Positions 1 through 60,782 of a stretch of 64,000 bases of DNA are shown piece by piece. Position 1 is the stretch's first letter. Every line of letters starts with the position of its first letter. Under the pieces are notes generated by a model. The model was given only the letters and a program-made list of their open reading frames with translations, had not been told where the DNA came from and searched no databases. The translations under genes and the position numbers were made by a program. The DNA lies in assembly GCA_014058105.1 (NCBI GenBank), contig JACGCM010002684.1, forward strand, positions 434,001-498,000, in the 5' to 3' direction. This DNA is from Kingdonia uniflora (Eukaryota > Streptophyta > Magnoliopsida > Ranunculales > Circaeasteraceae).

Positions 1-646
1 CTTGAGGGAATGCCAGTAGAAGTTGGATGCTGCTCATATTGGGGAGAAAGTTTTGGATAGGGAAATCAAAGAAAAGGAATCGCTAATGAAGAGAAAAGAA
101 GAATTATTAAAAGATATTCTGGCTAGGAAAGAATTGAACGCAAAAATTCGGAGACTTCGTGCTCGGGTAGTAGACTTAGAGGCCATGTACCTTGCTGAAT
201 CAACTAAGTATACAAATAAGTTAGAGGAGAATGTAATCTATCATGCTAAGGTCGATGAGGAAATGACTGAGTAGAGGAATGAGTATGCCAGGTTAGAGTC
301 ACGCCTCGAGAAGGTGCAGGCAAAATTTACAGTAATGGTCATACCCGATGCATCACGCTTTGACTTGCTAAAGGCAATTGTTACATACTTTGTAGAAGAA
401 GTAAAAAGACTTAAGTCAGAACGAGATACCTTGTTCAAAACACTGTCACATAAAGGATACATTTGTAGAGTTAAGATAGATCGAGGGAACTGTCTGGGCA
501 TCATGTTGACCCAACTGAGCCCTCGAACTGTAGAACTGATAGAATTGGGTAGAGCTGCTATGATCCGCGAACTGAAAGTTCAACCTCCTGATATAGGGGG
601 AAGCACTGCTGACTCTCCATCAGAAGAAAAGAAACCCTTGTTATAA
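1..646 (+). pseudogene. C-terminal tail of antisense ORF aORF-c of element C (coiled-coil protein)
   Basis: Open in one frame apart from one stop near 272; the frame is already open at the window edge. The product is a highly charged coiled coil, rich in Lys, Glu and Leu. It ends in a conserved segment containing YFVEEVKRLKSERDTL and then CRVKIDRGN, which recurs as YFVEEAIRLEVERVTL and IRRADIDQK in element D (near 8,770-8,690). It lies downstream of the C-terminal pol end of element C and runs against it. Function is unknown. The full-length relatives in A and D start with a domain like the plant 'putative gypsy type transposon' family. The stop near 272 makes it a probable pseudogene. Confidence 0.7.
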
Positions 647-11600: not shown

Positions 11601-12376
11601 ATAACATTCAATTTTAGCAGTTTGATGTTATATGTTGTTACACTTACTTTTCTTTACAGTTCTATACAGAAGTTTCATGGGTTCTTTATCATCTCTCTGA
11701 AGACAATCACCTTTCACCCAAATCACGTTATTATTCTACATTCGACCTGCTAAATTCAGATCGAAGAAAAGAGGTCGAGTCAAACTCGTAAAAAAGTATT
11801 CCCCTCCACTTGCAGAAAAATTCTTTACTCCCTAAAACTACAAAACATCTTCTGGAGATATTCTCCTTTCAACCTCATTCTCCTCCCACAAGCTATTTAA
11901 AATTTCACAAATATTTATTACCTCCAACATGTTCCTATTCAACTGAGCAGGACATGCCCCAATGATATTCATTATCCCTTTGGCAAGATTTCTAAGGGAA
12001 AAACTCAAACCATACTCCAACTGAGACAAATAATACAAAAAGCTCTCTTCTAGGTTACCCTGAACATTCCCATCAAAATACTCTAAGGAGATCGATTCGC
12101 CTAAGCCCTTATCCAATTTTTCCTTCTCTAAATTAAACAATAGAAAAAAATACTCCTCCCCGGATGCTACAATATAACTTCTAAACTGCCTACTGGCATG
12201 TTCTACGAAGTTTCCCCATCTTCCCCATATAAGAGCTTTGGATTTATAAAACTCTCTGAACACATTAGAGTTCGAAGGATATGATACCAATTTTCTAGGG
12301 AAATCAAGAAATTGAACTGCAACTTCATCCTCTCTCTCTCAGATACTACATTTTTAGACTGAGCTGAATGACCAGA
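8603..12376 (-). pseudogene. Antisense ORF aORF-c of element D: gypsy-type transposon domain plus coiled coil, five exons
   Basis: Runs against D's pol. Exon 1 (12,376-11,648) holds a domain like the plant 'putative gypsy type transposon' family: NSNVFREFYKSKALIW, a central LAKGIMNIIGACPAQLNRN segment and a C-terminal RPLFFDLN/VIWVKGD segment. The later exons encode a long charged coiled coil ending in YFVEEAIRLEVERVTL and IRRADIDQK. Splice-like junctions define introns 11,647-11,568, 11,061-10,985, 10,565-10,443 and 10,340-9,977, each with GT and AG ends and matched in element A. Several in-frame stops interrupt it. The first 17 codons lie at 26,893-26,843, beyond inserted element B. Role unknown; possibly nucleic-acid binding or regulatory. 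Confidence 0.72.
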
Positions 12377-14293: not shown

Positions 14294-14621
14294 ATGGCTG
14301 CAAATGTACCCGCACAAGAGAACTAGGCAGTAGTGAGAGTCAGGCGAATACAGGAGAAGACATTGGAGCTGCAACAAAGGTTTGGGATTGATCAGGATAT
14401 TAATGTTAAAATGCCAAACCTCTTTGAAGTGGAACCCGGGGAGCCCATTGCCGCCCATTGCCAGAATGTCTTTTGCATACTGGTGGGGAATTCTGCAGAT
14501 AATGGGACCGTTACCCGGCCACCGGTTGTCCCTGCTCAAGTTGTTTGCAGAAGAGATTGTGGACGAGGAAGATGCTGGTGTTGTGCCTGGGGTCGAAGAG
14601 GAACAACCCGTTGATGATTAG
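14294..14621 (+). pseudogene. Antisense ORF aORF-b of element B
   Basis: ATG at 14,294 (MAANVPAQEN), then a stop, then VRVRRIQEKTLELQQRFG, the segment that aligns with IKVVELRERYFCQL in aORF-b of element I. A frameshift near 14,440 moves the frame. The second frame ends at TAG with the acidic tail LLKLFAEEIVDEEDAGVV. The Cys-His motif seen at the end of aORF-b in A and I was not found here. Lies between aORF-a and aORF-c, all antisense to pol. Function unknown. Confidence 0.5.
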
Positions 14622-16178: not shown

Positions 16179-18439
16179 ATGCATACCCATCAAGCTTCAA
16201 GACAGAGGCTGATAGGCAGAGAGATCGAAGCATTCAAAGCTAGTATTTATGGTCATGTCCCAATGGATGAGGGCAGTAACTTAGAAGTGTTAGATGTTGT
16301 AACCGATACCCCTATGTCTATGGTGCAGCCAGTTGGAAAGGTTCCTATTATGAAATGTCATAGGACGGTAGTAACTGAGGATAGTGAGGAGGAGGACATA
16401 GTGTGGGGAGAGAGAGGTGAGGGTAACACAGGGCCCTCTAGTGGTGGAAAAGGAGAAGAGGGGGAGGGTGATGAAAGTGGGGATTCGACTGAGTCGGATA
16501 GGGTCGAAGGTGTCATTTCTGCTTGAGATATGGTTAGGTTAGATCGATTTGCTGCCAAGCTGGAGTTGTTGAAAGTGAGGGTGTTGTTAAGCGTGGCGGG
16601 AGTAGGGTTAACTTCCAAATTGATCCCTGGAGATGGAATAATGGCATATAGAGGCCAGATTCGACTGTGGATGGAACTTCCTCTTCGAAGGCTGATATAA
16701 ATGGTATTGAATTTTTGGGAGGTTGCTCCGGTACAAATGAATGGAAATTTTTATGAGATGATGAGGGTAATTAAGGGCATGAATACAAAATCGTGTGGTG
16801 AGGTGCGGGGTTTGATTAAGTAGTTTGATATTATGACCTTCTACTCGAAGAAGGCGAGCCAAAATATGGGTACCTACCATATCAAGTGTCACCCTGAGAA
16901 GCCCTAGTTTTTTTATCTGTGTTCGACGGGTCGAGGGTAGAATAAAGACTTAATCATAGTACGGGGTAACTATGAGAATGTTGAAGGGGAGGACCTATAT
17001 AAGTTACATCATAGGGTCTATAATCAGAGTAAGTTTGATGTTGAAGGATTGTTGCTGATGTATGTCTTGAATAAGTGGTAAATGTATTATGTTTGTTCTG
17101 CAGGTCCGAAGAATCTGACTTGGAAAAATCCGAGGAAATATATTGATACCATGCTCGAAGCTAGTGAGGATTGGGCGAATTATGTTTTCGAAAGTCTTGG
17201 TATCAAGAGGCAGAGAAGGAAGAAAATAGATTCCCTGCTTTGAAATGTACCCGTTACGCCGAAGCCATCAAAAGGAGGAGAGGCGAAGGTGGTTCAAAGG
17301 TTCCCAAAGAAATGTGGGGGGGGGAGGGGGGATGAGTTACCAAGAAATATTTAGTAAGTTCCAAAATCGAGGAGGGGGTCGAAGTAAGCAGCGCCAGTAC
17401 CCGAAGTGGCTGGCGATGCATCGAGAGTAAGGCCGATGACGAAGTGGCTGGTGATGCATCGAGAGTAAGGCCGAAGCAAGCAACACTAGTACTGAGGCAG
17501 ATGCCGACACAGGCTGAGAAGGGGAAGGGCTGAGTTGTTCTCAGAGTTGCGAAGGTACAACAGTCAAAGGTTATTCAGTGAAAAAGGCGTAGGGTACTGG
17601 GGGAGGATGATGCAGTGGATAAGGATTAAGAGATTATGAAGCTGAATGACAAGAGCAAGTGGTAGCCAAGCAAGCTTCGATGGTTGAACTCTGCGAAGAC
17701 GACCCAGACAAGGCTTCGAAAGAGATGAAGAGGAGTATATTTCAGGTAACTGTTTATTAATTTCTTCTGTGAGATTCTGAGATTTCTTTTTAAGTTCGTC
17801 AAATTTTGAGGGGTACTGACTACTCGAATATTCTAACAGAAGGATGCTTAGGCACAATCTTACGACAAGGCCATGAAGTCAGCAAAGGGGAAGCTGTGGC
17901 AAGCGATTGAAAGTCTGGATCTTGCTCGAGGGACTGAGGCTTTGTTACTGCTTGAGGTCAACATTTTGAAGCAAGATTTGGAGGCAATTACAAACTCCTT
18001 TGATGAGAGCTTTGGGCATCAGCGGTCTAAACAAGAGTGGGTGTGGGTGACGAAGCTTGCTGTTAAAGAAAAGGAAATGGAAGAACTGAAGGTGTTGTAC
18101 CAGGCCTAGTTTGATGGTGAGTGTAGAGTGATTGTCAAGCTGAAGGAGCTTATAGAGGATATGGGGTATAACCCCGATACTTTGGAGCCCTTCCCTGTTT
18201 CCCAAGAGCTTGTTGCTGGTGATGATTTGGAGACGAAGGAAGGAGAGGTAGATGTTGTTGATGGAGCAGATGGAAGTACTGGAAATGGTGGGGAGGTACC
18301 TATGATTGGAGCGACCAGTGTTAAAACCGTGGATGGTACGGTTACCGATGGTGCGGGTTCAAAGCCTTCGACTGAAGGTAATGAGGGTGTTGGCACTGTA
18401 GGGCCTGTGGGAGAAGAGGATCCGGTTGCGCCGATATAG
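16179..18439 (+). pseudogene. Antisense ORF aORF-c of element B: gypsy-type transposon domain and coiled coil
   Basis: Starts MHTHQASRQRLIGREIEAFK, followed by a Ser/Glu/Gly-rich acidic stretch. Past a stop at 16,524 comes a gypsy-type transposon domain: the 16,620-16,790 segment matches the pattern 'pl+rlv...l.f..vapvQlngN.w..m' with APVQMNGNFYEMMRVIKG. Introns are predicted at 17,039-17,103 (A|GTAAGT to CTGCAG) and 17,746-17,839 (CAG|GTAACT to AACAG), matching introns 1 and 2 of A and D. After intron 2 a coiled coil (17,873-18,109) leads to an acidic Gly/Val/Asp-rich tail ending at 18,439. A 38-bp tandem duplication at 17,402-17,477 and several stops show decay. Shorter than the A/D version. 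Confidence 0.68.
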
Positions 18440-22864: not shown

Positions 22865-22869
22865 AGATG

Positions 22870-23145
22870 TGGGGATAGAAAGAGACAGTGATTGCTATGG
22901 GCGGCTGACGAGTTTCTAGGTATGATCGATCTCTGGGTGCTCGCATGAATGGGTGAGGCATTGAGAGCCTTTCAGGCTCCAAGTACCATCGGGAGTAGTA
23001 AAATGAAGGGTCTGATGGTAGGTCGAAGGTATGGCACACATGGCGTGGACCCAGTCTCGTCCGAGGATACTGAGGTATTCTGACTTCTTGTAGATGACAA
23101 GGAAGCTTGTTTGAAGTGTAATAGGGCCCGTGGAGACTGGTAGGC
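22870..23145 (-). pseudogene. Protease C-terminal part of element B, downstream of the LINE
   Basis: Continues the protease frame after the LINE: GQISLPVSTGPITLQTSFLV, then SILGRDWVHAM, the usual late protease 'iLGRdWl' motif, and then the linker toward RT. The same stretch is uninterrupted in element H (48,470-48,600). Confidence 0.85.
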
Positions 23146-23156
23146 TGATTTGACCT

Positions 23157-23984: not shown

Positions 23985-23995
23985 CTGATTTGACC

Positions 23996-24619: not shown

Positions 24620-26020
24620 ATGTGGTAGATGGGTGCTGAGAGGGGCGGTGAGTGTGGGTAAGACTGGCTTCGGTCGCTTCTTGTGAGCTTCAACGTTGTT
24701 ATCGATGTTAGGGCATTTGTTGCTCTCAGCCTCCTATGAGACAGGAGCAATCAGGGGTGTTGGAGTGGAAGGCAAGTTTTGTCATGGTTTATTGATAGCT
24801 GGGGTCGAAGGTTGGCTCAGTTTATATGACTCGTAGAGGCGCTCGAGGTTAATATAACCGTTAACTTTTGAGAGCATCTCTCCAAGGGTTTGAGGTTTGT
24901 GTAGAACTAGTTATTCTTTGACTCGACTGTGATCAGGGAAGGCATTCGAGTATGCAAGTATAGCATTCGCGCAGTCAAGGTTCTCAATTTTCCGTGATTC
25001 ATCGAGGAACCTTTTGGTGAAGGCTTCGAGTGTCTCATTACTAGATTTTCTAAAATTGAACAGGGTATCAACTCTGACTTCTCAATCCATATTTAAGGCA
25101 AACTAGATGATGAAAAATTGTGACAGTTGCTTAAAGCTTCGTATCGAGCCATTTGGAAGATTGTGATACCATCGAAGGGGGTTGTCAGTAAGGCTGGTGG
25201 GAAAATGGCGACATAGTAGGTAATCGGCTATAGAATAGAGGCTCAGGGTATTTTGGAATTCGAGAATGTGCGATTGAGGGTCTGTGTTGCGGTATTTGCT
25301 GAGTTTGGGGGCACATAAATTAGGGCGTATCTCGATAGCGAGAAGTTTAGGGCATATGGGGTTATTGAGGCAACTTTAAGAGTTGGTGGCTGGGCTCGCA
25401 CTGACGCGAATAACTGGTTGTATTTTGAGGTCGAAGTCCTATTGTGCAGCATAAGTAGCATGAGGGGGAGATCGAGGAATTCGGGGATGGTGAGTTCGAG
25501 TGGGTGGAATATGTTCAGCGCTGCGCTCCCCGGGACTTATTCGAGCAGGGCGGTGTATGGGGTCTCGAGATAACCTGAGGGCGGAGTCAGAGGAGTTTGT
25601 AGGGTGAATGCCGAGATGGATGGAGCCGGTAAGGGGAATAGTGTAGGGAGCACCCTAGGCTTGGATACGGCCTTGGGCTACTCCAAGAGTGGGTAGGGGT
25701 CCCAGACGGGCATGGGCCAACATGCGTGACGGGGCTGGTGCTTGGGTTGGTCGAGCAGGATCTAGAGGCTATAGTCTCTGTAGCTCTCGAACGGTATTGC
25801 GTAACTTGCCGATTGCCCAGTTCTGTCTATTCTCGTCATCCAAGCGGTGGTTCCATTCAGTTTCCATCTCCAGGCAGTGGTTTTCATTCTTTTGGCTAAG
25901 TTGTGAATGGTGGCACTCCTCGGCTTGAGTGACTTGTTGGGATAGCAAGGCTATTTGGGCGGCCACTCCATCAATGGAGATGCCGGCATGGGTTGAACTA
26001 GAATGGAGGGTGGGTGCCAT
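24620..26020 (-). pseudogene. Gag of element B
   Basis: Start ATG at 26,018-26,020 (MAPTLHSSSTHAG), followed by a coiled-coil N-terminal region with RHLDDENRQN-like residues, shared with Gag of element H. The capsid part, near 25,200-24,900, lies in shifted frames with many stops. The primer-binding site (26,090-26,104, minus strand ATTGGCGTCGTCTGTG) is about 70 bp upstream. Confidence 0.75.
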
Positions 26021-26104
26021 TGGGGAGAATCTTTGGGTGTTAAAAATAAAGGGAGGGAAAGAGAAAAGATGATTGGTAGGGTAGAAAGCACAGACGACGC
26101 CAAT

Positions 26105-26837
26105 TTTAGGGGCCTAACTTCTTTTGGAGGGGAAGTTGGCTCTTACAACATGGGGAAATCTTCAATCAAAGGAATGCAAATAAATAATCTAATGCTTGAA
26201 CAATCTATAGACTAAATACTTGCGTAGAGGCCCAAATGTAATTCTCTGCGACCTCTGATGAGGAATTTTAAGAGTGCTTTTATTACTGATGAGTAATCGA
26301 AGGTTTAAGTACTTGGTTTTTACAGGGTGGTCGAAGGTAAACTGCAAAGGGGCTGGGGGGAATTTTTCTAACCCCTCATTGGTTCCCCCTCTTTCCTATT
26401 TATAGAACATAGGAAGGGCTGAATCACCAAGATTAGGTTTGATTATAAGGGTACCGTCCGGATATCCCGGCGGGGCCTGGGCGCCGGACATGTCTGTACT
26501 GTCACTGTAACAGCTGCTGGAGATGTCCCTGTACTTTGTCACTGTAGCAGTGGTTGGGCCTGTCACTATAGCTGCAAGGACCAACCATTGCGCCGTCTTG
26601 TCTGGTGAGTTGGTTGTTTATCCTGTCATACCTCGACCATATGCAGCTATGGTCCAAGTGTTTCTACTACGATGTGTGGAGTCCGTCCTCGAGGCTTTGT
26701 TTGAGTCGAAGCTTTGTTTTCAGAGGATCTTTGGAAGGCTTGTTTAAGGATTGAGTCGACTTCGAGATATTGAAGTAGGTTGCGAAGTAGCCTTTGAGTG
26801 TCTGAGTGGGGTCGAAGGCTGCGAGTAGGCTACTACA
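26105..26837 (-). mobile_element. 5' LTR of element B
   Basis: 733 bp. On the minus strand it begins TGTAGTAGCCTACTCGC and ends GGCCCCTAAA (the expected terminal CA is AA). It carries a TATA-like box (CTATAAATAG, minus strand, near 26,400). Homologous to 12,377-13,110 and to the LTR of element H (45,709-46,424). Confidence 0.92.
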
Positions 26838-27819: not shown

Positions 27820-28160
27820 TCACAAATATTTATACATGAAACATCCTAGATGTTCTGGGGAGCCACACCTAATCAGTTCCCTTCCAATAATCTTCACATC
27901 ATCCAACTTGATCTTTTCCTCAACAATTAGCCTCACAGCCTCTTTTAGAGTTAAAAACTCAACAATAGCCCTATATAGAAGCGACGCCCGAACTCATGTT
28001 CTCTACCCATTCAATATAAAACTTCAAACTAATATTCGGTCTTTGGCAAGTCAGTATCATAATCCAGCAACCCGAAAATCCTCTCTCGAACTTCAGCTAT
28101 TTTTATCGCCAATCGTCCCTCAGTGGCATAACAAATTCTCTCAGATCGAGTCCATAACAT
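27820..28160 (-). pseudogene. Antisense ORF aORF-b of element D
   Basis: ATG at 28,158-28,160 followed by LWTRSERICYATEGRLAIKI and AEVRERIFGLLDYDTDLPKT, then a stop. A later frameshift leads to the end LIRCGSPEHLGCFMYKYL. It aligns over its length with aORF-b of element A (33,071-33,424) and with that of element I (60,429-60,782). The C-terminal Cys-His motif has lost its last Cys (C-x4-H-x2-C-x2-Y). Function unknown. Confidence 0.62.
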
Positions 28161-28971: not shown

Positions 28972-29464
28972 TCAGTGCTTGAACCAAATCTTCAAACATA
29001 AGAACTTCTTAGAGCCCATAAATGATGATTGGGCAGGGGCAGACATCCAATCTTTGTCTCCCTTCTCCACTACCACCATTACTTCCTCTATAACCACCAC
29101 CATCAGAGAGTTGGCAGAGATAAAGAAAGCCCTACCTTTGAATCCAACCCTATGCAAGATACTGGCGATATTGCCTAGCAGTTACACCGGTCCCCATATC
29201 TGCCTCCTCAACCTTATCCTCCATAAGGATTTAGAGATACCTCACACGTTGCTCGCCTGTTAAGACAATGTAATAAAATTACCACATACAGCAAAAATAT
29301 TCTTCAGCTTCAGCTACTTCTTCTTTCGACATACCCTGATACATCAATAAATTGGGAGTTGGGGAGAACATCTCTGCATACTAATCCCTAAAGTATTTTA
29401 GTTTTAGTCTCTGTATTTTAGCAACAACATTATCTTCATACACCATCCTCTAGGTTTTTACCAT
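28972..29464 (-). pseudogene. Antisense ORF aORF-a of element D
   Basis: ATG at 29,462-29,464 giving MVKT, a stop, then RMVYEDNVVAKIQRLKLKYF, LMYQGMSKEEVAEAEEYFCC and VLTGEQRVRYL. The last part, including GSKKFLCLKIWFKH, is open from 29,157 to 28,972. It aligns throughout with aORF-a of element A (31,853-32,345). A TATATAAA box stands at 29,536-29,543 (minus strand), 72 bp upstream, the same distance as in A. Function unknown. Confidence 0.62.
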
Positions 29465-30970: not shown

Positions 30971-31602
30971 TGCAATGGCCTAATTCTGTAAGCTCGAGAT
31001 GGCTCAGAATTAGCTCTTAAACCAATGTTCTTGTGACAAAACTAATATAAGATAAGAAATGACACAAGTGATTTAGCGTAGAAAACATCTAAATAGGTAA
31101 AAAAAAACCACGACCTCAAGTTGAGGGTTTTAGTAATAGTAACTTTTATTGCTTGAGGCTGAAATCTTATTATAAGTGATTTATCGAACTAGAAATACTT
31201 GATCTTGTAAATAAGAAGTTTGGTATTTTAAGAATCTATAAAATATAGTTTTCTTGACGATTTTTCTTATATTTTTCTGGTCCCTGTCTCTTCTGGAACT
31301 TTTTCTTTATATAGACCTTGTCTGCAGTTATCTATCATGCTGAAACATGTTTAGCGAATAACGTGGTAGGTGGTGCTTGACTGAGTAAATTTTGAGTTTA
31401 GGAGAGACAGGTATCATTGACTTATTCATGCTTTTCTGTTGTGCTTGACCCATGTTATTTATCAGTTCGTGGTGTAAGTGTCAATGCTGACTATTTTAGT
31501 CACATGTAGAATGCATGAGTCCAATATGTAGGTAGTTCAAACTTGAAATAGTTCGATTTATGTTAGATCGAGGGATAGATCCCCACAATCGCTCCCTCAC
31601 AA
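30971..31602 (-). mobile_element. 3' LTR of element A (to 31,587) and polypurine tract (31,588-31,602)
   Basis: 617-bp LTR matching 42,071-42,674 along its length. On the minus strand it starts TGTGGGGATCTATCC and ends GGCCATTGCA. Bases 31,588-31,602 on the minus strand read TTGTGAGGGAGCGAT, a polypurine tract interrupted by one C, as in the other elements. Confidence 0.9.
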
Positions 31603-31773
31603 CCGAAGTCATGAGTGGCTTTGGTTGAGAAAGAATTTACGGGTATATGGGTATATGGGTTTTGGAAGTTGAAAATAAAGGAAGTGATGTACGCAACACT
31701 TGGGGTTTGGGGAGTTTTTCTGCTTTGAATGATGATTCTTGGGAAACGTACCTACATATTTAAATATTAGGGT

Positions 31774-31781
31774 TATATAAA
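31774..31781 (+). promoter_or_regulatory. TATA box of aORF-a, element A
   Basis: TATATAAA, 72 bp upstream of the ATG at 31,853. The same box at the same distance is found in element D (29,536-29,543, minus strand). Confidence 0.6.
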
Positions 31782-31852
31782 TAGTACATGTACCGAGGAT
31801 TGTGGCCAAGTATACTATTTGTTACAAAATTCTCTGTGAGTCTAGATAGACA

Positions 31853-32345
31853 ATGGTAAAGACCCGGAGAATGGTTTATGAAGAGAGAGTTTCTATTGAG
31901 ATACAAAAGTTAAAGTTGAGATATTTTGGTAATCAGTCCTTGGAGATGCCCACTCCTGTTCCCGTTCTACCGATGTATCAGGGTATGTCGAAAGAACAAG
32001 CAGCTGAAGCTGAAGAATATTTTTGTTGCATATAGAGATTTCATCACGTTGTCTTAACAGGCGAGCAACATTATAGGTGTCTCTGTATCCTTGCGAAAGA
32101 CAAGGTTGAGGAGACAGATGCCGGGGTTGGCACAACTGCAGGGCAGTTTTACCGATGTCTTGCGTAGGATTAGATTCTAAGGTCAGGCTCTCTTTATCTC
32201 TGCCAACTCTCCGATGGTGGTAGTTATAGAGGAGGCGATGGTGGTAATGGAGAAGGAAGACGAACAATGAAAGTCTGCTTCTACACTATTATTACCTCTT
32301 GGCTCTAAGAAGACCTTTTGCTTGAAGAGTTGGTTTAAGGACTGA
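31853..32345 (+). pseudogene. Antisense ORF aORF-a of element A
   Basis: MVKTRRMVYEERVSIEIQKL, then LRYFGNQSLEMP, MYQGMSKEQAAEAEEYFCC, a stop at 32,034, VVLTGEQHYRCLCILAKDKV, and after a frameshift the end GSKKTFCLKSWFKD. A relative in element I (59,049) shares MVTTR...IQVKIEELCVRFF and HGMTYKEALEVEDD, and one in D matches throughout. The N-terminus also resembles aORF-b (MVRTHSQR...IKVVELRERYF), so a and b may be tandem paralogues. Antisense to pol, next to the 3' LTR. Function unknown. Confidence 0.65.
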
Positions 32346-33070
32346 CTCTTTCTGCTTTCTTGCCCAGACTTCCTCCAAACCCAGTTTCTAGTCTGAGTAA
32401 TCTAGTATAAAGGGAGAAGGATGTTTGGTGACTTCCAATGCCTGCTTTACTTCAGAAGATTTTTTGTGTAAAATATCATTAAAGTAAGATGAACTGAAGG
32501 ATTTGTTATTGCAGAGTACCTGAAAGACTTGTTATCTATAAAGTACCTGAAAGATTCAATATCTGTAAAGTTCCGTTAATTTATATTCGAGCTTAATAAA
32601 ATTTGTTATTCAAACTCTGTGTTGATATATAGAATAACTCTTGAAATCGAGCGATGAATAATTCGAAGATTTACGAATAGAGGATGAAATTTATTAAATG
32701 AGATTGGAACTACAGAATCTACTATAGTAATCGAGCAGTAAAAATATGCTTGAAACATAAATTCAATTTTGAACTAAATGACTTAGAATTATCGTGGGAG
32801 AGAGATAACTGTAGAAGTTTCAAGATATATAAAAATTGGAAATTCGAGCCCAGAAAGGTCATTCTGGAATATTGGATTTGGAAAATATAAGTTCGAGATG
32901 GAATAGGTCTAATTTATTGAGGTCAATTTGGATAGATAAGTTTAAATAATTTTCCCCAGGATACAAGGGTTTTCAATTGTGAAAGAGCAGAATATAATTG
33001 TAGATTGTGGGGGATCTGGTGTAATCATAAATAGGGGACAATGAGCCTTTAAGAAGGAGGAAAAATAGAA
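32346..33070. other. Spacer between aORF-a and aORF-b, element A
   Basis: AT-rich, with no coding sequence recognised. It holds about two copies of the 27-bp repeat (32,516-32,575) that has five copies in element D. Confidence 0.6.
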
Positions 33071-33424
33071 ATTGTGTGGACTCGATTTGAGAGAATTTGT
33101 TATGCCGCTGGGGAACGGTTAACGATAAAGATAGTTGAAGTACGGGAACAGATTTTTAGATTATTAGACTATAATCTTAACCTTCCAATGACTAAGTGTC
33201 ACTTTAAAGGTTTAGATTAGATGGGTAGGGAACTTTAGTATAGGCGTCGCTTCTACGAGGAGCTATTATGGGAAGTGATTGTGGAGCCTTTATTTTGAAA
33301 AGAGGTTGTGAGGCTAATTGATGAAGAAGAGATCAAGTTGGAAGATGTGAGGATTGTTGGAGGTGACTTGATTAGGTGTGGTTCCCTAGGACATCCGGGA
33401 TGTTTTAGGTGTAATAATATGTAA
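33071..33424 (+). pseudogene. Antisense ORF aORF-b of element A, with C-terminal Cys-His motif
   Basis: The start codon is degraded (ATT where element I has ATG). One frame then runs the whole length with three stops: TRFERICYAAGERLTIKIVE, VREQIFRLLDYNLNLP, RRRFYEELLWEVIVEPLF, and the end EDVRIVGGDLIRCG then SLGHPGCFRCNNM. Element I has DERVIGGEIIPCG then MLNHLDCFKCNYM. The shared C-x4-H-x2-C-x2-C spacing could bind zinc, which is inference. No known family recognised. Confidence 0.65.
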
Positions 33425-33826
33425 GGGAGTGAATTTTATGAGTTGGAATAACTGTCAGCGAAATGTAATGAGAATGAAGTTTGAATCTGTCCTCTATTAT
33501 TGCAAATGTTTTTTGTGACTGTTGTAAAAAATAAATTGGAATATTTTTGAAATGTTTAGAGCTTTGGAAATGACGTCAGCACTTCTATAAGTAGAAGAAG
33601 CATAAAATAGAAAAAGCAAGCAGCTTTTGATTTTGTCTTGTAAAATAGTAGGGAAAGTTTGATTGCGCTTAAGTATTGGGTCATCAAGGGTACAGGGAGG
33701 TCAGAGGGAGATTTAGGAAAGAGAGATGAAAATATATTAAAATATAGGGCAGGGAGAAATGATGGGAATGTGCTTTTATCAAAAAGGTGTAAGGCCCAAT
33801 AACTGCCAGTAGTTAGAGAAAGAAAA

Positions 33827-34303
33827 TATAAATAATACTTCATCTTCTTCATTTAAATGTTTATTAATATCTGAAAACTTGAAGAACAGTGAGAGTTGAA
33901 AAAGAAAAAATAGCAGAGAATTTCTTGAGAAATTAATCAAGAGTGATCAACAATCAAAATGAGAGAGAGTTGCTGAGACTAAGTCACGATGGTGGTTATA
34001 TAGCAGTGTTGTGAGGGAATGATTCAGTGTTGCGTCAGATTTATATCCTGACATAGAAGGTCAGTAGATTATTTGTGATCCTTTGAATGTGTTCCTTTTG
34101 AAAATCTTTTTTTGCGATATGCAAATCTAAAAATTACTATTTATAACAATCAATAAAAAAATCTACTTGATATATTCATAAAATGAGATATGAAAGATAT
34201 ATGTATAGGGATGATATATATGTAAAAGATAATGATGGAATACTTGGACCTGTATGTAGGTCGAGTGTGAGGAGTTTGGTGTAGGATCAAACCTTATCTG
34301 TAG
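33827..34303 (+). promoter_or_regulatory. Promoter and leader intron of aORF-c, element A
   Basis: AATATAAATAA at about 33,827-33,837, an A/G-rich leader, donor GAAG|GTCAGT at 34,059/34,060 and acceptor TATCTGTAG at 34,303, 13 bases before the ATG at 34,317. Element D has the same TATA box and donor. Element I has the acceptor TATCTGTAG at 62,026. Confidence 0.58.
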
Positions 34304-34316
34304 ATTTGTAGTTGAT

Positions 34317-37300
34317 ATGAAGACTTCACCTTTTAATGAGGCGTCGACCTCTGGTCGATTGGCTGAGTCTGCGAATATAATATCTGATAAGGAGGATGAA
34401 ATAGAAGTTGTTCAATTTCCATATTTCCCTGGTAAATTGGTATCCTATCTTCCAAATTTTGATGTGTTTAGAGAGTTTTGCAAAGCCAAAACTTCTGTAG
34501 GGGGAAGAAGGGGTAATTTTGTTGAACATGTCGGTAGGTAGTTTTGAAGATATATTGTAAGATCTAGACAGGAACATTTCTTTTTGTTGGCTGATTTAGA
34601 GAAGGGGAAACTTGATAGGGGGTTTGATGAGTCAAATTCCTTAGAGTATTATGATAGAAATGTATAGGGCGATCTGGAAGAGGTTTTCTTATGTTACCTG
34701 TCCCAATTTAAGTATGGGTTGAGTCTGCCTCTAAGTAATCTTGTAAAAGGGATTATGAATATCATAGAGGAATGTCCTGTTCAGTTGAACGGGAACATGT
34801 GGGATGTAATAAATGTCTACAAATTTTTGAATAAGTTGTAGAAGGAGGATGAGGTTGAGAGGAAGATATCTCCTGAAGATGTCTTGCAGTTTTATGGGGT
34901 AAAAAACTATTATGCAAGTGGAAGGGCATACTTTTTTGTGAGTTCAACTCGACCTCTTTTGTTTGATCTGAATTAAGTTGGTCGAATGTGGAATGATAAT
35001 ATGATATGGGTGAAGGCTGATTGCCTTCAGAGAGATGATGAAGAACCAATGATACTTCTATGTAGAACTATGAAACAAAGTAAGTATAGCAATGCATAAT
35101 GTATAATATTAAAATATTGAAATTGAATGTTGCTTTATTGATGATAATGCGTTATTGATTGATAGTTCCTCAATCGAAGGTGACGAGGATGGAATCTTTG
35201 TTAGATATTGTTGCTCAATAAGGGATTGAGCTCAAGGTTGTTTTGAAAGTAGTTGCCACTAGCAAAAAGAAGTATGCTAATAGCCGGTCTGAAAAAGTTC
35301 AAAAGTCTCAAACAACGAGGCTAATCACAGGTGTTGGTGGCAATAAGAAGAGGAGAGCTGATGGAGAGAGACGAGTAGTCTTTCCCAAGGCCTTTGGAGT
35401 GGACTTTACAGATGTGCCAGAGTCTACTACATCGAGCAAGCTAGCTCGTATATTTCCAAAAAAGAAGATGTTAAAGTGTGGCTCGACCTTTAGAACCACA
35501 GGAAGTGGTGAGGTCGAAGGAGGGGCAAAAAAAAGAAGGGTTGATCCTCCGTCCTAACTAACTGGGGTGAAGACCGTAGAGAGTAAACTTGGTAAAAAAG
35601 ATGAGTTGAAAGTGGTGGAGGATAGGGCGAAGCTTGTAGTTCACAATTGTAAGAAGAAAATGAGTAAAATGGTAAGTTTAATAATTTGAGCATATGTTAA
35701 ATTCTGTATGACGATTCAGGCTAACAATGTGGTTAATGTTTGCTGTGTTTTTGTAGGCTGCTCGTTTGATGAAGGGGATCTACCTTAGGGTAGAGGAGGA
35801 TAAAGTCGACCTTGTGGAGGGGAAGGCTGAGCTCGAGAAGAAGGCAGAATTGGTTAGGGAGGGGAAGCGACTGAACTCTTTGAAGGCTTCCCAAGAGGTG
35901 GAAATCAATGAGCTGACAGGGTGGAGGAGGATAAAGTCGACCTTGAGGAGGGGAAGGCTGAGCTCGAGAAGAAGGCAGAATTGGCTAGGGAGGGGAAGCG
36001 ACTGAACTCCTTGAAGGCTTCCCAAGAGGTGGAAATCAATGAGCTGACCGCGGGAAAGAATTTGGGGGAAGTAGTAATCCTTCTAAAAATTGAGTACTCC
36101 AAAACATAGGTGAATGACATTTTGGCAGACACCTATGTTGAGGAGGGGGAAGATGATGAGGCGGAAAATGTTACGATTGGAGTCATAGACGGGTTATATG
36201 GTGTCTCTCCTCAAATGGTGCAAGACGACCAAGGGGATGACAATGAGCGTCCAGAGGAAGGGAGCAAGAAGGTAGAGTAGAATATTGACTCTATGATTTT
36301 GTGATTATGAAGTGTTTGAAATTTTACAATCTAATGGAACATTGTTTGTTGGATAGACTTCAGTAGGCTAAGATATGTTTTTAAACCTTGTTGTAGGAAC
36401 TTAAGGACATGCTCTTCGGAATAAAAGAATTAGAGAATGAGCTCACTAAGGAGAAAGAAGCCTCAGCGTCCCTGCTGTCTTCGTAAGCGGAGCTACAAGT
36501 TAGAAATGAGCAATAAATATTTGACTTGTATGCTTCATTACTTTAGAGCAACAAAGTATAAAAATAGACCAAATACTTGCTAACAGGGGCAATGGCACTT
36601 AAATGTATATAGATAATATCAAAGTGTTGAAAAAGTTAAAATATAGAGAATGTGTATCTTGGAATTAGAAGTATATGTTATTGTTCATCAAATTGAGATC
36701 ATACTTCGACTTAAGTTTAGTAGAAGTTTCACATAGTAGATGTCAAAAAATAGAAATTTCGTTTGAAATAAGATGCATGTATCGAGTGAGTATTCTGAAT
36801 CGAACTTGACATATTGTATTTGTGATATGTATGTCGACTTGGAGTCTGCTCGTTTGAGCAAAGAAGAGACACGCCAATATAACCAAGAGTTTGCTGCAGA
36901 GTTTGGTAGAATAAGAGAGGCAATCAAAGATAGGGAAGATCAACATGACATTTCAAGTTCGTCTAGGAAACTCAAACCATTGATAGCCTTACTCAGAAAA
37001 TCAAGGAGAAGGATGTTGAAATTAGTAAAGGGCAAAAAGGGCTCACGGAGATGATAGAAAAGGCAGCAAAGCTCAAAAGCCAGAATGATGCCTTGATGGT
37101 AAAGAGTAAGGAGGCCGACATGACTCAATACCGTATACAGTTGTTAGAAACATCAGAGATAGAATTATGCCATTTTGTGGCCAGTCTGAAGGACTAAATA
37201 ACCAGCAAAATCAACGCACAAGAGCAGACTCGAGCTAATTTAGGGAATACCAGGGGCGAAATGGAGCGGTTAAAGAGTAAAATGACTGAGAAAGATAACG

Positions 37301-38281
37301 AGCTAAATAATGATTTAGATGACTTTTTGAGCTCCAAAATTGCGGTTGAGCAGTTGACTACAGCTTTACCTGCTAAAGATATAAAGTTTTGGCTGGTACA
37401 AAGGAAATGTGATAAGCTGAATAAAAGGGTGGCACAGTTGAAGGCCAATTTGGCTCAGGCCAATTGACGTGCCAAAAATGCCGAAGCTGGAGAGTGCTCG
37501 AGGAAGAATAAATGTGATGCCAGAGTCTCCATTGTTCAAGGGGATGTAGTTATCTTATCAGCTCGAATCAGAGAGCTAGAGGCAAATGTAGCTCGAGCTC
37601 AAGGTCACGTGCTAAAAGGAAATGAGTGGTTAAGGGAGTGCCAAGGTAAGTTGGACGCTGCTCTTTCCAGGAAACAAGAGTTAAAGTGGGTTATCAGAGG
37701 TAAGGAGATCTTGATAAAGAAAATGATGAACTGTTAAAGAAATCTTCTGCTGGGGAAGATTTTGATTAGGAGCTCGAGGAACTTTGTGCTTAGGTGGCTG
37801 AATTGAGGGTGATGAATCATGCTGAATTAGCTAAAGTTGATAAGAAGGCAAAGGAGAACATTGAATTTATATCCCGCGGAGATAGTCAAATGGAATGACA
37901 AGAAGCACGGTATAAGAGGTTAATAGAGCGGCTTCAAATGGCAAGAGAGAATTTTTCAAAGTTAGTCGTGACAGAAGCATCGTGTTCAGAGATTTTAATG
38001 GCAGTGATTGCCCATATTGTTGAGGAGGTAAAAAGGCTACCTTGCACGACTGTTTGTCAGAGAGAGGATATATTTGAGGAGCTGATATAGATCAAGGAAA
38101 CTGTATTCACTCTATGGAAATGGAGCTTGGTTCTCGGCCTGCTGACTTAGTAGAGTAAGGCAGGGTCACTGTGGCTGCTCAAGCTCAAAAATTTATGGCT
38201 GATCATCCTCCTATTGTAGGGGAAAGCGTAACTGACCTCTCAGTAGCTGAAAGGAACCATTTGCACTGGCCGTATATATAA
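34317..38281 (+). pseudogene. Antisense ORF aORF-c of element A: gypsy-type transposon domain plus long coiled coil, five exons
   Basis: Exon 1 (34,317-35,079) encodes MKTSPFNEASTSG and a domain like the plant 'putative gypsy type transposon' family: YLPNFDVFREFCKAK, CYLSQFKYGLSLPLSNLVKG, IMNIIEECPVQLNGNMWDV, YYASGRAYFFV and RMWNDNMIWVKAD. Predicted introns are 35,080-35,165, 35,672-35,756, 36,272-36,396 and about 36,495-36,831, the last with decayed sites. Exon 2 is basic (Lys/Arg-rich); exons 3-5 are a charged coiled coil ending near HIVEEVKRL. Several stops, a 131-bp duplication in exon 3 and late frameshifts make it a pseudogene. Runs against pol of A. Could act on chromatin or as a silencing antagonist, but no evidence here decides. 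Confidence 0.72.
35790..36051. repeat. 131-bp tandem duplication inside aORF-c of element A
   Basis: 35,790-35,920 and 35,921-36,051 differ at only a few positions. The period is not a multiple of three, so the second copy is shifted out of frame. The single-copy state is kept in element D. Confidence 0.92.
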
Positions 38282-38289: not shown

Positions 38290-38870
38290 AGTATCTTTCA
38301 CAAACATATTGAGAGATGAAAGTTAGTTTTACCTATGCTTTATCCTATGTCAGGTAAAGTTTTTTGATTGAAAACTAGTATTACATTTATTTTAATCACA
38401 GAGTATAATTGTCATAGCAATATTGAGAGATGAAAACTAGTTTTATATTTACATTATCTTATGTCTGGTTGAGTTCTTTTATTGAAAACTAGTATTTCCT
38501 TCGTTTTAATCGCAGAGTATAATTGTTGCAGCCATATTAAGAGATAAAAGCTAGTTTTACCTTTGCATTATCTTATGTCTGGCAGAGCTCATTATTTGAA
38601 AACTAGTATTACCTTTGTTTTAATCATGGAGAATAAATGTCGCAGCCATATTGAGAGATGAAAGTTAATTTTACCTTTGTTTTATCTTATATCTAGTAGA
38701 GTTCTTTGATTGAAAACTAGTATTACCATTGTTTTAATCGCAGAGTATAATAGAGTCGATCAAAGCTAGTTTTACCTTTGCTTTAACCGGAATATAGATC
38801 GATTGAAAGCTAGTATTACTTTTACTTTAATCTAGGTATTATCTATGTAAGTAGAGAGTTGCATAAACAA
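38290..38870. repeat. Minisatellite of element A, period 114 bp
   Basis: ATTGAGAGATGAAA or a close variant stands at 38,308, 38,422, 38,536 and 38,650, exactly 114 bp apart. A fifth partial unit follows. The unit also contains TTGAAAACTAGTATTACC and TTATCTTATGTCTGG, as in elements C and D. Confidence 0.9.
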
Positions 38871-38959: not shown

Positions 38960-41830
38960 TGGAGTAGTGAGGGACTTAACGATAGTACCATTTAAGTTGC
39001 CTAGTATTCCAAGGATTTGAGATATGGACACCCTCTTCGGTCATGAGGTAATATGATCCCAGGCCAGTGAGACCTGTGATTAAAAATGGACCCTCCCAAT
39101 TTTTTGCTAGTTTATTGGCATGTACCTCATTTTTGTGCTGAGATTTCTTTAAGGACGAGATTGTCAATTTGGAAAGAACGGCTTCAGACTCTTCTGTGGT
39201 ATAAGCTGGCTAGCTATGGTGATTTCAACCTAGGTTAGCAATAGTGCGTTTCCTAGTCTCATCAATCCAATTGTGGTTGCAGGCCAATTCGTATTGTTTT
39301 CTTCGTCAGTTAGCTCGTTATCGTTGACTGGATAATGATATTATGCTGGAATGGCGACTTCGGCACCATTGGCGATGAGGAATGGGGTACAGCCGATTGA
39401 TTGACGTGGAGTGGTACGGTATGCCCATAAGACATGAGGAAGCTTTCGTACCCAGTTTCCTTTTTTCTATGAGTGAAGCCTTTTCTTGACTCCATCCACA
39501 ATGGTTTCGTTGGTTATTTTGGCTTGGCCATTGCCTTGAGGGTAGTAGGGATAGGATGGTGAGTAGATGATGTTGTGTTTGTTGAGGAAAGCTATGACTT
39601 TTTTTCCAACTAATTGTGGCCTATTATCGATGCGAATTAGGTGGGGGCATCCAAACCGAGTAATAATGTGTTCCCAGATAAAAGAGATGAACTCTTCTTC
39701 TCTAGCTCGACAGAGTTGAACTGCTTCTACCCATTTTGTAAAATAATTTATAGCTACGAGTAGGTATCGGCGGTTACCTGAAGAATTTGGAAATTCACCG
39801 ACAAGATCGAGTGCCTAACTTTTGAATGGCTAGAAAACCTTGCTTGTATATAGTTTGAGAGCAGGGGGCGTGGATCATTTATCCATGTCGTTGACATGTA
39901 TCACATTTGCGTTAATACTCTTCTGCTTGCATGCGCATGCTTGGCCAGAATACTCTTTGTGTAATGGCTCAATGTAAAATGGCTTTATTTGCCAAATGTA
40001 ATGGCTATTTTTATAAGTGATCGACCTGCGGCATGGGAGCCACAAGTACCTTCATGTAAATCATGGAGCATCTCGTCTGCCTTCTTTCTGGAGAGGCACT
40101 TGAGGTAAGGCCCCGTGACTGAACGGTAATATAAAAAACTGTTTTGATTTGTTTAGCGCTTTGAGTTGCCAATCAGCTATCGGCGCTCTTTTGCATCTGT
40201 TGGAAGGGGGTCTTTGTATTTGTTGTCGGTACCAAGGTAAGCAAGGAAGGGCTTATGCCAATTATCGTTCTCCCCTCTATCGCCCCCAGTGTTGATCGTG
40301 CATACAGAAATGTGATCAATACTGGAGTTTGATATCACTTTAATCTGGCGATATCGGCCTTCTATTTCCAAGACCCCGGCTAGATAAGCCAAGGAATAGG
40401 TATATCTGCTTTCACCTTATAGAAGATAATCGAGAGTTTCTTTCGTGAACTCGCTCATCATATCTGCAATGAGGGCTGGATATTCGATCATTTTGCCATT
40501 ATTCTTGAATTGCTCAGAGTAATGGTAGGCGATGAGTAGTGAATTTGTGTAGACTAATAGTTCGGGGAAGCCAAGCTTAAGTGCGAGGTTCAGTCCATGA
40601 ATAAGAGATTCGTATTCGGTGACATTGTTGGAGTCTTCAAAATTCAAGCGAATTAATTTCTCAGTTTTTTTGTTATAAGGGGTAATTAATACGATTCCAA
40701 TTCCGCAGGGTCCTGCTAATCCATATGTAAGAAGTTTCTGCCCTTTTCTTGTAATCTATTCAGTTCGCCCGTCAAATGCTTTAGTGGGTGGATCTCCTAT
40801 AAATTCTTCTGCAAGGTCAGGATCATGATCCTCCAACTCCGGATCTTCCACAGGAAAATCCACGAGAAAATCGCTAACGGCCTGACCCTTTTGAGAATGA
40901 CATTGTTCGAACAATTTATCGTGTTCTCCCAAACTAACTGACCATTGTTATACTCTCCTAGATTTTTCTTTCTAAGACAAAACTTCCCAAAGTGGGTAAT
41001 TTGTCTTGACTTTGACTGAATGAGCTTGGAAGTAGTGCTTAAGTTTCTGTAAGTGTAAACTAGTGTTAGAAGGAGTCTCTCAATTTTATAATACATCTTT
41101 TCTGCTGGAGTGAGGGTTTTGCTGATGAAGTAGACTGGCTTCCCAATTTTTTCTTCAAGTCGAGTAAGAGCTGAGCTGATAGAAGTATTTGTAACTGCTA
41201 GGTAGATGATCAGTTCCTCGTTATCTACTAGGGTGTTCATTATGGGAGACTTCCCTAAATAGGTTTTGAGATCCTGAAAAGTTTCCTCGCATTCTGATGT
41301 CCATTGGATCTCTGCATTTGGCTGAACTTTTCCTCATTTGGTATAACTGCAAAGTAGTAAGAACAGCCAATGACAGCGATCTAAAGATTTTGAGATGAAT
41401 CGGTTGATAGCGGCAATCTTGCCAAAAAAAATTGTACGCCTTTCGTCTTCTTTGGAGATGGCATGTTAGGAAGAGCTCGAATTTAATTTACATTAGCCTC
41501 AATCCCTTTCTTGCTGATGAGATGGCGGAGGAATCAGCCTGAATGTACTCCGAATTGACACTTATCAGGGCTGAGTCACATCCGGTAAGATCATAGAATA
41601 TTAAATATTGTGTTAAGATTTGTAATGTGGCTGACTGACTATATGCTCTTGCGCAAGAGATCGTCAATGTAGAATTTCACAACTTTCCCAAGATGTACTT
41701 TAAACATTTTGTAGTCATCAAACGTTGATAAGTCGCGCCTATATTTTTGATTCTGAAGGGCATGACTTTGTAGCAGTCTACATGGTTTTCATCTGGTCTT
41801 CATGTCATTTGAACACTATCAAATAAGCTT
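38960..41830 (-). pseudogene. RT end, RNase H and integrase of element A
   Basis: From 41,830 down: YKMFKVHLGKVVKFYIDDLL with an intact YIDD box, then the RNase H part KPVYFISKTLTPAEKMYYKI (41,140), the archaeal-type RNase H with NFEDSNNVTEYESLIHGLN and LVYTNSLLIAYHYSE (40,640-40,500), integrase zinc region with HDLHEGTCGSHA near 40,050, the core in shifted frames, and the C-terminus NWEGPFLITGLTGLGSYYLM (39,110-39,050). The first RT motifs and protease are deleted. Many stops. Confidence 0.86.
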
Positions 41831-42070: not shown

Positions 42071-42674
42071 TGTAATGACCTAATTCTCTAGGCTCGAGAT
42101 GGCTCAGAATTGGCTCTTATATCAATGTTCTTGTAATAAAACTAATATAAGATAAGAAATGATACAGGTGATTTTGAGTGGAAAACCTCTAAATAGGTAA
42201 AAAAACCACGACCTCGAGTTGAGGATTTTAGTAACAGTGGCTTGTATTACTTGAGGTTGATATCTTATTACAAGTGATCTCTCAAACTAGAAATACTTGA
42301 TCTTGTAAATTAGAAATGTTTTCCAAAAAATATAGTTTTCTTGGTGATTTCATGTATAATTTTTTGGTCCTTTACTCTTCTGGAACATTTTCTTTATATA
42401 GACCTTGTCCACATTTCCCTATCGTGCAAAAGCACGTTCTCCGAATAACGTAGTAAGTGGTGCTTGACTGAGTTACTATTGAGTTGGTGAGAGACAGGTG
42501 TCTTTGACTTCTTCATGCTTTTCTATTGTGCTCGACCCACGTTCTTTATCAGTTCATGGCGTAGATGTCAATGCTGACTGTTTATGTCACATGTAGAATG
42601 CGTGAGACTGATATATAGGTAGTTTAAATTGGAAATAGTTCAAATTAGGTTAGATCGAGGGATAGGTCTCTACA
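42071..42674 (-). mobile_element. 5' LTR of element A
   Basis: 604 bp. On the minus strand it starts TGTAGAGACCTATCCC and ends GGTCATTACA, has the TATA box CTATATAAAG near 42,395 and matches 30,971-31,587. Confidence 0.92.
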
Positions 42675-42777
42675 ATGCTAATTCTTGTGTGTTCGTGATT
42701 ATTTTTTATTTCTAGTGTTCTGATTAAATTTGGTATGAGCTACAAAGTTTGGGATCCAAAATTAGGCTTTTACAAAT
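42675..42777 (+). mobile_element. Right part of the element E 3' LTR
   Basis: ATGCTAATTCTTGTGT and then ATTAGGCTTTTACA match the end of the F-type LTR at 54,103-54,200. With 30,618-30,970 it forms one LTR split by element A. Confidence 0.78.
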
Positions 42778-44455: not shown

Positions 44456-45039
44456 TGTAGTAGCTTATTCTGGATCACGAACTCAAGTCTCAACATCGAC
44501 CATCACACATCTACTCGACCTCATCAGCATACGATCACATGGCACAACATGGAATAACTACAAAGAAGTATACTCATCATTTTCGATCTCTACATCGACA
44601 GTTTGAGTCAACAAGCGCTCCGCCATCAATGAAGTCGTTATAAGACAAAAAGATCAAACAGTTACAAAATTATCTCAATAACTCATCAAATCTATATTGT
44701 AGTGTTCATCATTAAATATAATAATGGCTGTCAAATGGTTATATTATAAGACCTATAATTAAGACCAGAAAACCACAGATAAAGAAGGACATAAAACTCC
44801 GCATATGAACTGCTACCCGGAAACTTTACACAAAATTATCCAGAGCATTCTTTGTAATAGCTAGCAATCATCAATAAGATCTCTCTCTCTTTCAAAATCT
44901 TCAAGAAAGGTCATGGTTTCTAACCTATTCAAAGGTTTTCCACGCAAAACATTGTGTTAGCAATTACTCATTATTCACTAACGTTCTGATTAGTATTGGT
45001 GTAAGAGACTAAGTTTAGAATACGAAATTAGCAATTATA
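44456..45039 (+). mobile_element. 5' LTR of element G (F-type)
   Basis: 584 bp, starts TGTAGTAGCTTATTCTGG and ends CAATTATA. It matches the LTR fragment at 53,698-54,200 and, inverted, 58,165-58,702. Followed at 45,040-45,056 by the primer-binding site TTTGGCGCCATCTGTGG. The five bases before it (ATTTG) would be the target duplication; the partner was not found. Confidence 0.85.
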
Positions 45040-46441: not shown

Positions 46442-46509
46442 TTCCCACCCTGCACATCCCCCATCCTTCTTCCCCTCCTTTTGTTTTCTACTTTAACAGA
46501 TTAACCTAA

Positions 46510-48700: not shown

Positions 48701-48720
48701 CGCAGCATCTTTCCATCCCT

Positions 48721-49900: not shown

Positions 49901-49949
49901 CGTGCTATTACCAGTTCTCCCCTTCGAGAGGTACTTAGCAAAAAAAAAT

Positions 49950-59048: not shown

Positions 59049-59641
59049 ATGGTGACGACAAGGCAACAGTCTCGGGAGCCTAGGATTCAAGTGAAGATAG
59101 AAGAACTCTGCGTCAGATTTTTTCCACACCAACCCTTGCACCTGCCGACGTTATTTTTGGTGTCCCCTATATTTCATGGGATGACATATAAGGAGGCATT
59201 GGAGGTAGAGGACGACCATATCTAGATGGTGCGTTTACATTATTTACTGGCATCGGAGAGTGAGTACCGAAATGGGCTGCGGCAGCTGGTGGAGAAAGTT
59301 GTTATAGCTGAAGATGAAGTGGCAGGCATTCCTCCAAGGGAGTCTCGCCGGCACCCTTCTGGTGAGTGGGTCCTATCTAAGAAATAGAACCCTTTCTTCC
59401 TTCTCTGTCGTGGGGGGTGGTGGGGGCTATGGTGGAAGAGACGGTGGTGGAGGAGGTTTTTCTTCCAAAGACAATAGATTTTGGCCATCTTTCTGCCAGT
59501 ACCGTCACTCTTTCGGTGATTTCCAGTGCTAGTATTTCCCGGCCCATTCATGCAGGGGATCAGAGTTTGAAAGTTGCTTCAATTATGTTTCATCCTCCTT
59601 GGTGGCTGCTGAGAACTATTTCGAACTGTGACTTGATGTAG
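59049..59641 (+). pseudogene. Antisense ORF aORF-a of element I
   Basis: MVTTRQQSREPRIQVKIEEL, CVRFFPHQPLHLP, HGMTYKEALEVEDD, a stop at 59,223, LHYLLASESEYRNGLRQLVE and KVVIAEDEVAGIPPRES, then a frameshift and an open tail rich in Ser and Val to 59,641. Matches aORF-a of A and D in order and length. Function unknown. Confidence 0.62.
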
Positions 59642-60428: not shown

Positions 60429-60782
60429 ATGGTGAGGACGCATTCTCAGCGTGTTAATCGTGCAGTAGAAGGTAGGTTCCATATCAAGGTCGTTGAACTT
60501 CGTGAACGATATTTTTGTCAGTTGTCTTACGATGCCATATTGCGGGAATGGTCGTTAAAGCTGGGTGGCTTAGATGATGAAGGTATGCGTGTAGAGTATG
60601 ACTATTTTTTCTGGTGTGACATGTTTCGCGAGTTGCTATTAGATACAACTTTACGAGAAGAAGTTGTTCGAGAGATCGCACGGGACAAGATTGCTAAAGA
60701 AGATGAGAGAGTAATAGGAGGGGAGATAATACCATGTGGTATGTTAAATCATCTGGATTGTTTTAAATGTAACTATATGTGA
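60429..60782 (+). CDS. Antisense ORF aORF-b of element I, intact, with Cys-His motif
   Basis: 117 codons, open from ATG to TGA. Begins MVRTHSQRVNRAVEGRFHIK and VVELRERYFCQLSYDAI. The middle is acidic and hydrophobic (FFWCDMFRELLLDTTLREEV). The end is IGGEIIPCGMLNHLDCFKCN, YM, with spacing C-x4-H-x2-C-x2-C. The same order of segments, including the C-terminal motif, is seen in element A (33,071-33,424) and D (28,160-27,820). A single small zinc-binding knot is possible. Preceded by TATATAAA 73 bp upstream. No known family recognised. Conserved length across three copies supports a real gene. Confidence 0.62.
   Translation: MVRTHSQRVNRAVEGRFHIKVVELRERYFCQLSYDAILREWSLKLGGLDDEGMRVEYDYFFWCDMFRELLLDTTLREEVVREIARDKIAKEDERVIGGEIIPCGMLNHLDCFKCNYM

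Follow-up and report, generated by a model that had tools for sequence, protein, structure and literature searches.

The long region between pol and the 3′ long terminal repeat (LTR) of Retand elements, Ty3/gypsy retrotransposons of the Tat clade, commonly carries genes that run against pol. The available text of a survey of angiosperm Retand elements (Vicient 2025, PMC11963269) describes antisense coding regions in all Retand clusters and antisense open reading frames (ORFs) with the TRP28 domain, which is predicted to bind DNA, in 97% of them, together with coiled-coil (Smc-like) domains and often tandem repeats; the accessible part of another report places TRP28 (PF04195) in 23% of Retand elements (PMC6317226). 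An antisense gene in the same interval is known from Grande of maize (gene23) and RIRE2 of rice, and Grande GENE23 is nuclear and transcribed from its own promoter, according to the sections available of a review (PMC7264820). The Retand element of Silene, as described in outline, has the extra ORFs ORF3 and ORF4, the latter with pfam04195, and an amplified tandem repeat. Here we describe an antisense block with two additional small ORFs in element D of a 64,000-nucleotide (nt) stretch of Kingdonia uniflora DNA (contig JACGCM010002684.1, positions 434,001 to 498,000; hereafter the window), where old Ty3/gypsy elements are nested in one another; the genome measures 1.003 Gb.

The antisense block and its large gene, ORF c, are already known; the new part is ORFs a and b, a related pair of small ORFs close to the 3′ LTR that distinguish the Kingdonia elements from those in the available text of PMC11963269. 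The initial annotation of this DNA noted that extra ORFs, some of them antisense, occur in plant Ty3/gypsy elements but knew of no description of the three-ORF set with its two small ORFs; c by itself is not new, given the TRP28 ORFs of nearly all Retand clusters, and for a and b the available text of the surveys agrees. The review text on Grande and RIRE2 (PMC7264820) likewise makes no mention of such a pair in the sections available, an earlier mention is possible in the primary papers on Grande, RIRE2 and Silene Retand, and Silene ORF3, known to us by description only, may be related to a or b. The cut-offs given in the accessible text of two large surveys, 250 codons and 600 bp, mean that a and b would be missed; as far as its text is available, PMC11963269 shows ORFs of at least 600 bp, shorter ones only with TRP28, and does not include Ranunculales among its listed orders. 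If a and b are genuine partners of c, they would be an example of coding capacity that goes unseen in these elements when ORFs are filtered by length. A Retand-type element with an antisense block is now described in this early-diverging eudicot order.

An antisense block in element D

Element D is bounded by a pair of diverged LTRs and contains, between pol and the 3′ LTR, an antisense region of ~6.5 kb with plus-strand reading frames, plus tandem repeats. ORFs a, b and c lie on the plus strand in this interval, antisense to pol, with ~0.9 kb from a to b and ~0.9 kb from b to c.

30971..31589, minus strand: 3′ LTR of element D, 82.7% identity to 42071–42676 (Kimura two-parameter distance, K2P, 0.204)
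31774..31783, plus strand: TATA-like box TATATAAATA, ~80 nt upstream of ORF a
31853..32161, plus strand: ORF a (~103–104 residues), one in-frame stop in D; protein match to ORF a of element I
33026..33036, plus strand: weak TATA-like stretch before ORF b, which fails the TATAWAWR pattern in D
33071..33424, plus strand: ORF b (117 residues, Cys/His-rich C terminus), three in-frame stops in D; protein match to ORF b of element I
34317..35079, plus strand: ORF c exon 1, with a TRP28-like domain at ~34671–34841 (third-position excess and ratio of nonsynonymous to synonymous differences per site, pN/pS, between D and A; PF04195 at an E value of 0.007, under the cut-off; gene models P0002–P0004)
35166..35670, plus strand: ORF c exon 2 (phase switch; pN/pS; gene models P0002 and P0004)
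35758..36271, plus strand: ORF c exon 3, probable (GT donor of the preceding intron present in 22 of 23 genome copies; constraint weak)
36839..38090, plus strand: coiled-coil and C-terminal coding blocks of ORF c (pN/pS; D 37710–38084 matches element C)
38305..38751, plus strand: tandem repeats with a ~114-nt unit, between the antisense region and pol
38976..41333, minus strand: broken pol of D, with RNase H, a second RNase H (RVT_3) and integrase (Pfam matches)
42071..42676, minus strand: 5′ LTR of element D, paired with 30971–31589

The Pfam matches in pol, all on the minus strand, are RT_RNaseH_2 at 40797–41333, RVT_3 at 40417–40755 and the rve integrase at 39467–39814. We read the RVT_3 match as the additional RNase H (aRH) of Ogre and Retand elements, for which the order RNase H, aRH, integrase is reported in the accessible part of PMC6317226; because D has this order, with the second RNase H lying between RNase H and integrase, we place it in the Ogre/Retand group, in keeping with the initial assignment to the Tat clade. 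D also shows a trait of the Retand lineage in its antisense ORFs, which lie in the interval from pol to the 3′ LTR. Taken jointly with the roles proposed below for a, b and c, the view that this region is an antisense accessory-gene block of an old Retand-type family in K. uniflora is one that we favor, if only somewhat beyond an even chance.

Conservation of ORFs a and b between subfamilies

ORFs a and b of D were compared with those of element I, which carries both at the following positions.

59049..59384, plus strand: ORF a of element I, one stop; protein match to ORF a of D
60429..60782, plus strand: ORF b of element I, unbroken, 117 residues; protein match to ORF b of D

The a proteins of D and I are 37% identical over 76 residues (54.7 bits) and the b proteins 36% over 125 residues (73.9 bits). 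These are the only matches above 35 bits between the two elements, and both fall in the plus-strand coding frame. Given the underlying nucleotide identity of 0.49 for a and 0.52 for b, none of 1000 neutral simulations reached the observed protein score in either direction. By codon position, nucleotide identity is 0.43, 0.72 and 0.33 in a and 0.54, 0.64 and 0.36 in b. This between-subfamily comparison supports coding of a and b, as judged from sequence. The earlier suggestion that the block is older than the split of the subfamilies is also supported. The ORFs are 104–117 residues long with conserved start codons, and among the copies in the window only the b of element I is unbroken.

Copies across the genome

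A DNA search of the genome with positions 33000–34500, in which 40 of 6709 candidates were scored, listed 75 matches with identities of 79–87%, the window itself apart. From these we took 26 places (L003–L028), dropping the window (L001) and a repeat of L003 (L002); a row was used for a region if it covered at least 60% of it, giving 21–28 rows per region with D and A included. Two of the places, L017 (contig C2022) and L021 (contig C1535), hold nearly the same copy with matching layout, possibly as two haplotypes of one insertion or an assembly duplicate, and both were kept.

No column carries a majority of stop codons in a (0 of 103, 24 copies), b (0 of 117, 27 copies), exon 1 of c (0 of 256) or exon 2 of c (0 of 158). 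The coiled-coil and C-terminal blocks of c have one such column each as framed, so the D frame shifts or ends there. Four intergenic controls have 5–16 majority-stop columns in every plus-strand frame. We rejected the open frame alone as proof for a, since majority-stop columns are likewise absent from one reverse frame of a and from one control reverse frame. Unbroken versions occur for b, from ATG to stop, in four of the 26 places (L016, L020 and L022, 117 residues, and L028, ten residues longer) and for a, at its full length of 104 residues, in two (L022 and L028). That independent copies elsewhere in the genome hold intact frames fits the initial view of a and b as real reading frames and runs counter to the outcome that the initial annotation named as refuting, namely that independent elements would share no conserved frame. 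The ATG is kept in 21 of 23 copies of a, at least 17 of 26 of b and at least 24 of 27 of c, while 21 of 26 copies of b retain its TAA. Of 22 ungapped copies, 16 have an identical 14-mer surrounding the TATA-like box of a; strict TATA matches stand 77–80 nt before the ATG of a in D, a in A and b in I, and 89–93 nt before that of b in A. Together, the sequence data indicate that a, b and c were all kept as protein genes before these copies decayed.

At position 33792, element A and many genome copies have ~60 extra nt relative to D, so that D-like and A-like sub-types exist.

ORF c is a spliced gene of a known kind

ORF c, spliced and coding for a coiled-coil protein with a Transposase_28-like domain whose Pfam match falls under the cut-off, is of a type already described among Retand antisense genes and is not new. 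In the comparison of D with A, mismatches concentrate at third positions in three blocks of c, and the phase changes across the first intron, which the Kingdonia gene models P0002 and P0004 span, joining both flanks. The pN/pS is 0.28 in exon 1 (34320–35090; other phases 0.77 and 0.89), 0.25 in exon 2 (35222–35640; 0.56 and 0.80), 0.40 in the coiled coil (36967–37737) and 0.39 at the C terminus (37737–38090), so that the four blocks span 0.25–0.40 against 0.56–0.89 in the other phases. Element D has a local duplication at 35757–36110, in the coiled-coil part of c, and many copies map both halves onto one stretch. A further gene model, P0003, joins a predicted Kingdonia pentatricopeptide-repeat protein to a piece of the TRP28 antisense gene; this fusion reflects either an error of gene prediction or capture of an exon of the element.

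A pair of distantly related small proteins

Profiles of a and b point to a distant relationship between the two. Profile–profile comparison gives a probability of 79% and an E value of 1.6e-5 over 89 columns, and P0005, a Kingdonia protein that is an unbroken 112-residue version of the first small ORF of element B, matches the second small ORF of two B-type copies with E values of 3.5e-6 and 7.7e-5. The set can therefore be described as a pair of small related genes plus c. A profile of the a and b rows matches P0005 (E 1.9e-14) as well as P0006 (E 6.7e-12), a longer Kingdonia gene model that includes a D-type a. A single-sequence protein search with the b of element I gave no match. Homologues of a, b or c outside Kingdonia were not found among annotated proteins, in a search that needs shared words of five residues, and a test for kinship of a and b with c was negative.

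Predicted models make a and b small helical proteins, b with a Cys/His-rich tail. Pfam, at E values up to 10, gave no match for P0005, P0006 or the b of element I; the best match in a PDB sequence search had an E value of 0.24; and Foldseek, with models of limited confidence, gave none for P0005 at E values up to 10 and a best E value of 6.2 for the b of element I. No relation of a and b to gag was found, the profile-comparison probability being 0.1%.

Selection on a and b among copies

Selection was gauged by the ratio of nonsynonymous to synonymous substitution rates (dN/dS), the check that the initial annotation had suggested, and the outcome is mixed. A protein search with P0005, in which 150 of 7445 candidates were scored, gave 70 of 150 rows without stops by hand count; one with the b of L022, with 150 of 14808 scored, gave 26 of 150, query included. 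The 20 best-scoring of the 70 unbroken a copies (one duplicate excepted) have a dN/dS of 0.31, with 0.63 and 1.29 in the other plus frames; 20 of 26 a copies with at least two stops have 0.29 (0.72 and 1.40), and 20 of the 26 unbroken b copies 0.33 (0.66 and 0.79). Since broken copies of a do not differ in this ratio, the constraint seems to predate insertion. We take the values of 0.29–0.33 as support, not proof, and the neutral simulations of D against I as the better test.

Several observations weigh against the favored reading of the block as a whole. The lists behind the 20-copy sets are ordered by protein score, a bias toward low dN, and in all three sets reverse frame −1 is low too (0.39–0.42). 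Among D-family copies picked by DNA, the pooled dN/dS is 0.45 for a and 0.58 for b, with controls at 0.49–0.83 over all frames, and another phase of b is lower (0.45) than the coding phase. In the same copies c has 0.44 in exon 1, 0.44 in exon 2 and 0.42 in the coiled coil, and a less favorable 0.63 in the C-terminal block. These DNA-picked ratios are little informative because most of the differences arose after insertion. The pN/pS of D against A resolves neither a nor b; we accordingly rejected it, together with the dN/dS of the 21–28 DNA-picked rows, as support for the small ORFs, both being inseparable from control frames. Within c, the D–A comparison finds weak constraint at 35757–36110 (0.64; other phases 0.86 and 0.72) and at 38090–38280 (0.65), and the PF04195 (Transposase_28) matches, at 16.6–17.2 bits and E values of 0.006–0.01, lie under the cut-off of 26.2. 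Several single a–b pairs score no higher than shuffles, the predicted models of a and b have low to moderate confidence (predicted local distance difference test, pLDDT, 66 and 62) and found no PDB relative. A well conserved TATA-like box precedes a only, that of b being weak, and a strict TATA is absent within 100 nt of the a of element I, the two small ORFs of B and the b of D.

Proposed role of the block

We consider a and b most likely to be accessory proteins that act in the nucleus on the expression or silencing of the element. The three ORFs would be transcribed from plus-strand promoters of their own beside the 3′ LTR, so that the proteins could be made even when no genomic RNA is present. 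By analogy with Grande GENE23 and from the TRP28 prediction, c would be nuclear and probably DNA-binding; a and b may be small helical adaptor or binding subunits that join c in the nucleus and, with it, raise the expression of the element or shield it against silencing. The fuller proposal, that a and b are a new small accessory protein family, duplicated inside a retrotransposon, which forms with c an antisense-encoded regulatory or anti-silencing complex, is possible and offered tentatively, at well under even confidence. Antisense HBZ of human T-cell leukemia virus (HTLV) and the anti-silencing ORFs of VANDAL elements, as far as the sources are available, share with the block that they are accessory regulators outside the main polyprotein, and are likened to it by function only. 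If true, an a–b–c complex would help to explain the thousands of candidate copies in the genome searches, and a and b, as true partners of c, would give experiments small proteins to work with in place of a single large coiled coil.

Other explanations place the function elsewhere. Small helical proteins, one with a Cys/His-rich tail, could bind RNA or gag, so that a and b might help to build or pack the virus-like particle, or have env-like functions, instead of being nuclear regulators; we regard this as unlikely, as the profile comparison found no relation to gag and the antisense orientation keeps expression of a and b apart from gag-pol. The position of a and b upstream of c on the same strand, the clearest D–A constraint lying in c, and the indecisive results for the small ORFs both in that comparison and among the DNA-picked copies would all suit a block in which only c is functional, with a and b either hitch-hiking as old frames or serving as leader ORFs of the c transcript that regulate its translation. 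Frames of 104–117 residues, conserved as proteins between subfamilies, are nevertheless long for leader ORFs, the gaps on either side of b are wide, and a has its own TATA-like box, which makes such a role improbable.

The antisense RNA might itself be what matters, pairing with the genomic RNA and feeding or tuning silencing, with the small frames incidental. Antisense transcripts able to form double-stranded RNA have been proposed for such elements (available text of PMC7264820), and the TATA-like box before a would serve an RNA product too, but what D and I share in a and b tracks amino acids and not nucleotides, and across copies the frames stay open and b retains its stop. We therefore find an RNA-only function distinctly improbable and retain nuclear accessory proteins as the preferred role for a and b.

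The block in elements A, B, I and C

The coordinates in D, A, B and I agree with the antisense orientation and the ORF order first reported for this DNA, as follows for the remaining elements.

29147..29464, minus strand: ORF a of element A
27823..28160, minus strand: ORF b of element A, frameshifted, in two frames
11841..12338, minus strand: TRP28 part of ORF c of element A, an open frame of 166 residues
13362..13696, plus strand: first small ORF (a) of element B, frameshifted (72% over 99 residues to P0005, plus a match to the start in another frame)
14294..14617, plus strand: second small ORF of element B, a-like and frameshifted, without the Cys tail of b
16635..17015, plus strand: TRP28 part of ORF c of element B (independent E value, iE, 5.3e-8 with a profile built without B sequences)
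20..643, plus strand: end of ORF c of element C (C 83–445 matches D 37710–38084, 67 bits)

All three ORFs had been claimed for A, B, D and I, with the end of c in C. The claim holds in full for D and A and for the end of c in C; the c of I is uncertain, and the second small ORF of B resembles a. The c of A starts near 26837 and resumes from 12338 downwards, being split because element B inserted in its first codons. Element B, nested in A, spans 12379–26837 with LTRs at 12379–13108 and 26107–26835 (88% identity). Three further B-type places were compared: L091 has the two small ORFs followed by TRP28 and then a coiled coil; L089 has both small ORFs, TRP28 not being found in the fetched stretch; and L090 has the first small ORF alone. 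In element I, the TRP28 profile gave no significant match to the region of c, which holds a coiled-coil-like reading frame with a weak match to the C-terminal profile (iE 0.42); as that profile was built from A, C and D, its matches in those elements are uninformative and only the weak match in I counts.

Of the three LTR subfamilies first proposed, two stand, the LTRs of D and A forming one family and those of B and E a distinct one; the stretch before ORF a of element I may represent a third kind, as a candidate LTR. It belongs to a group of related stretches of ~500 nt in both orientations (44551–45031, 53720–54189 and 58302–58702), the last of which adjoins ORF a of I upstream. In element E (45709–51660, plus strand), no antisense region was recognised; this element has an LTR of the B family, a fairly long gag (47218–47796), and RNase H and RVT_3 frames.

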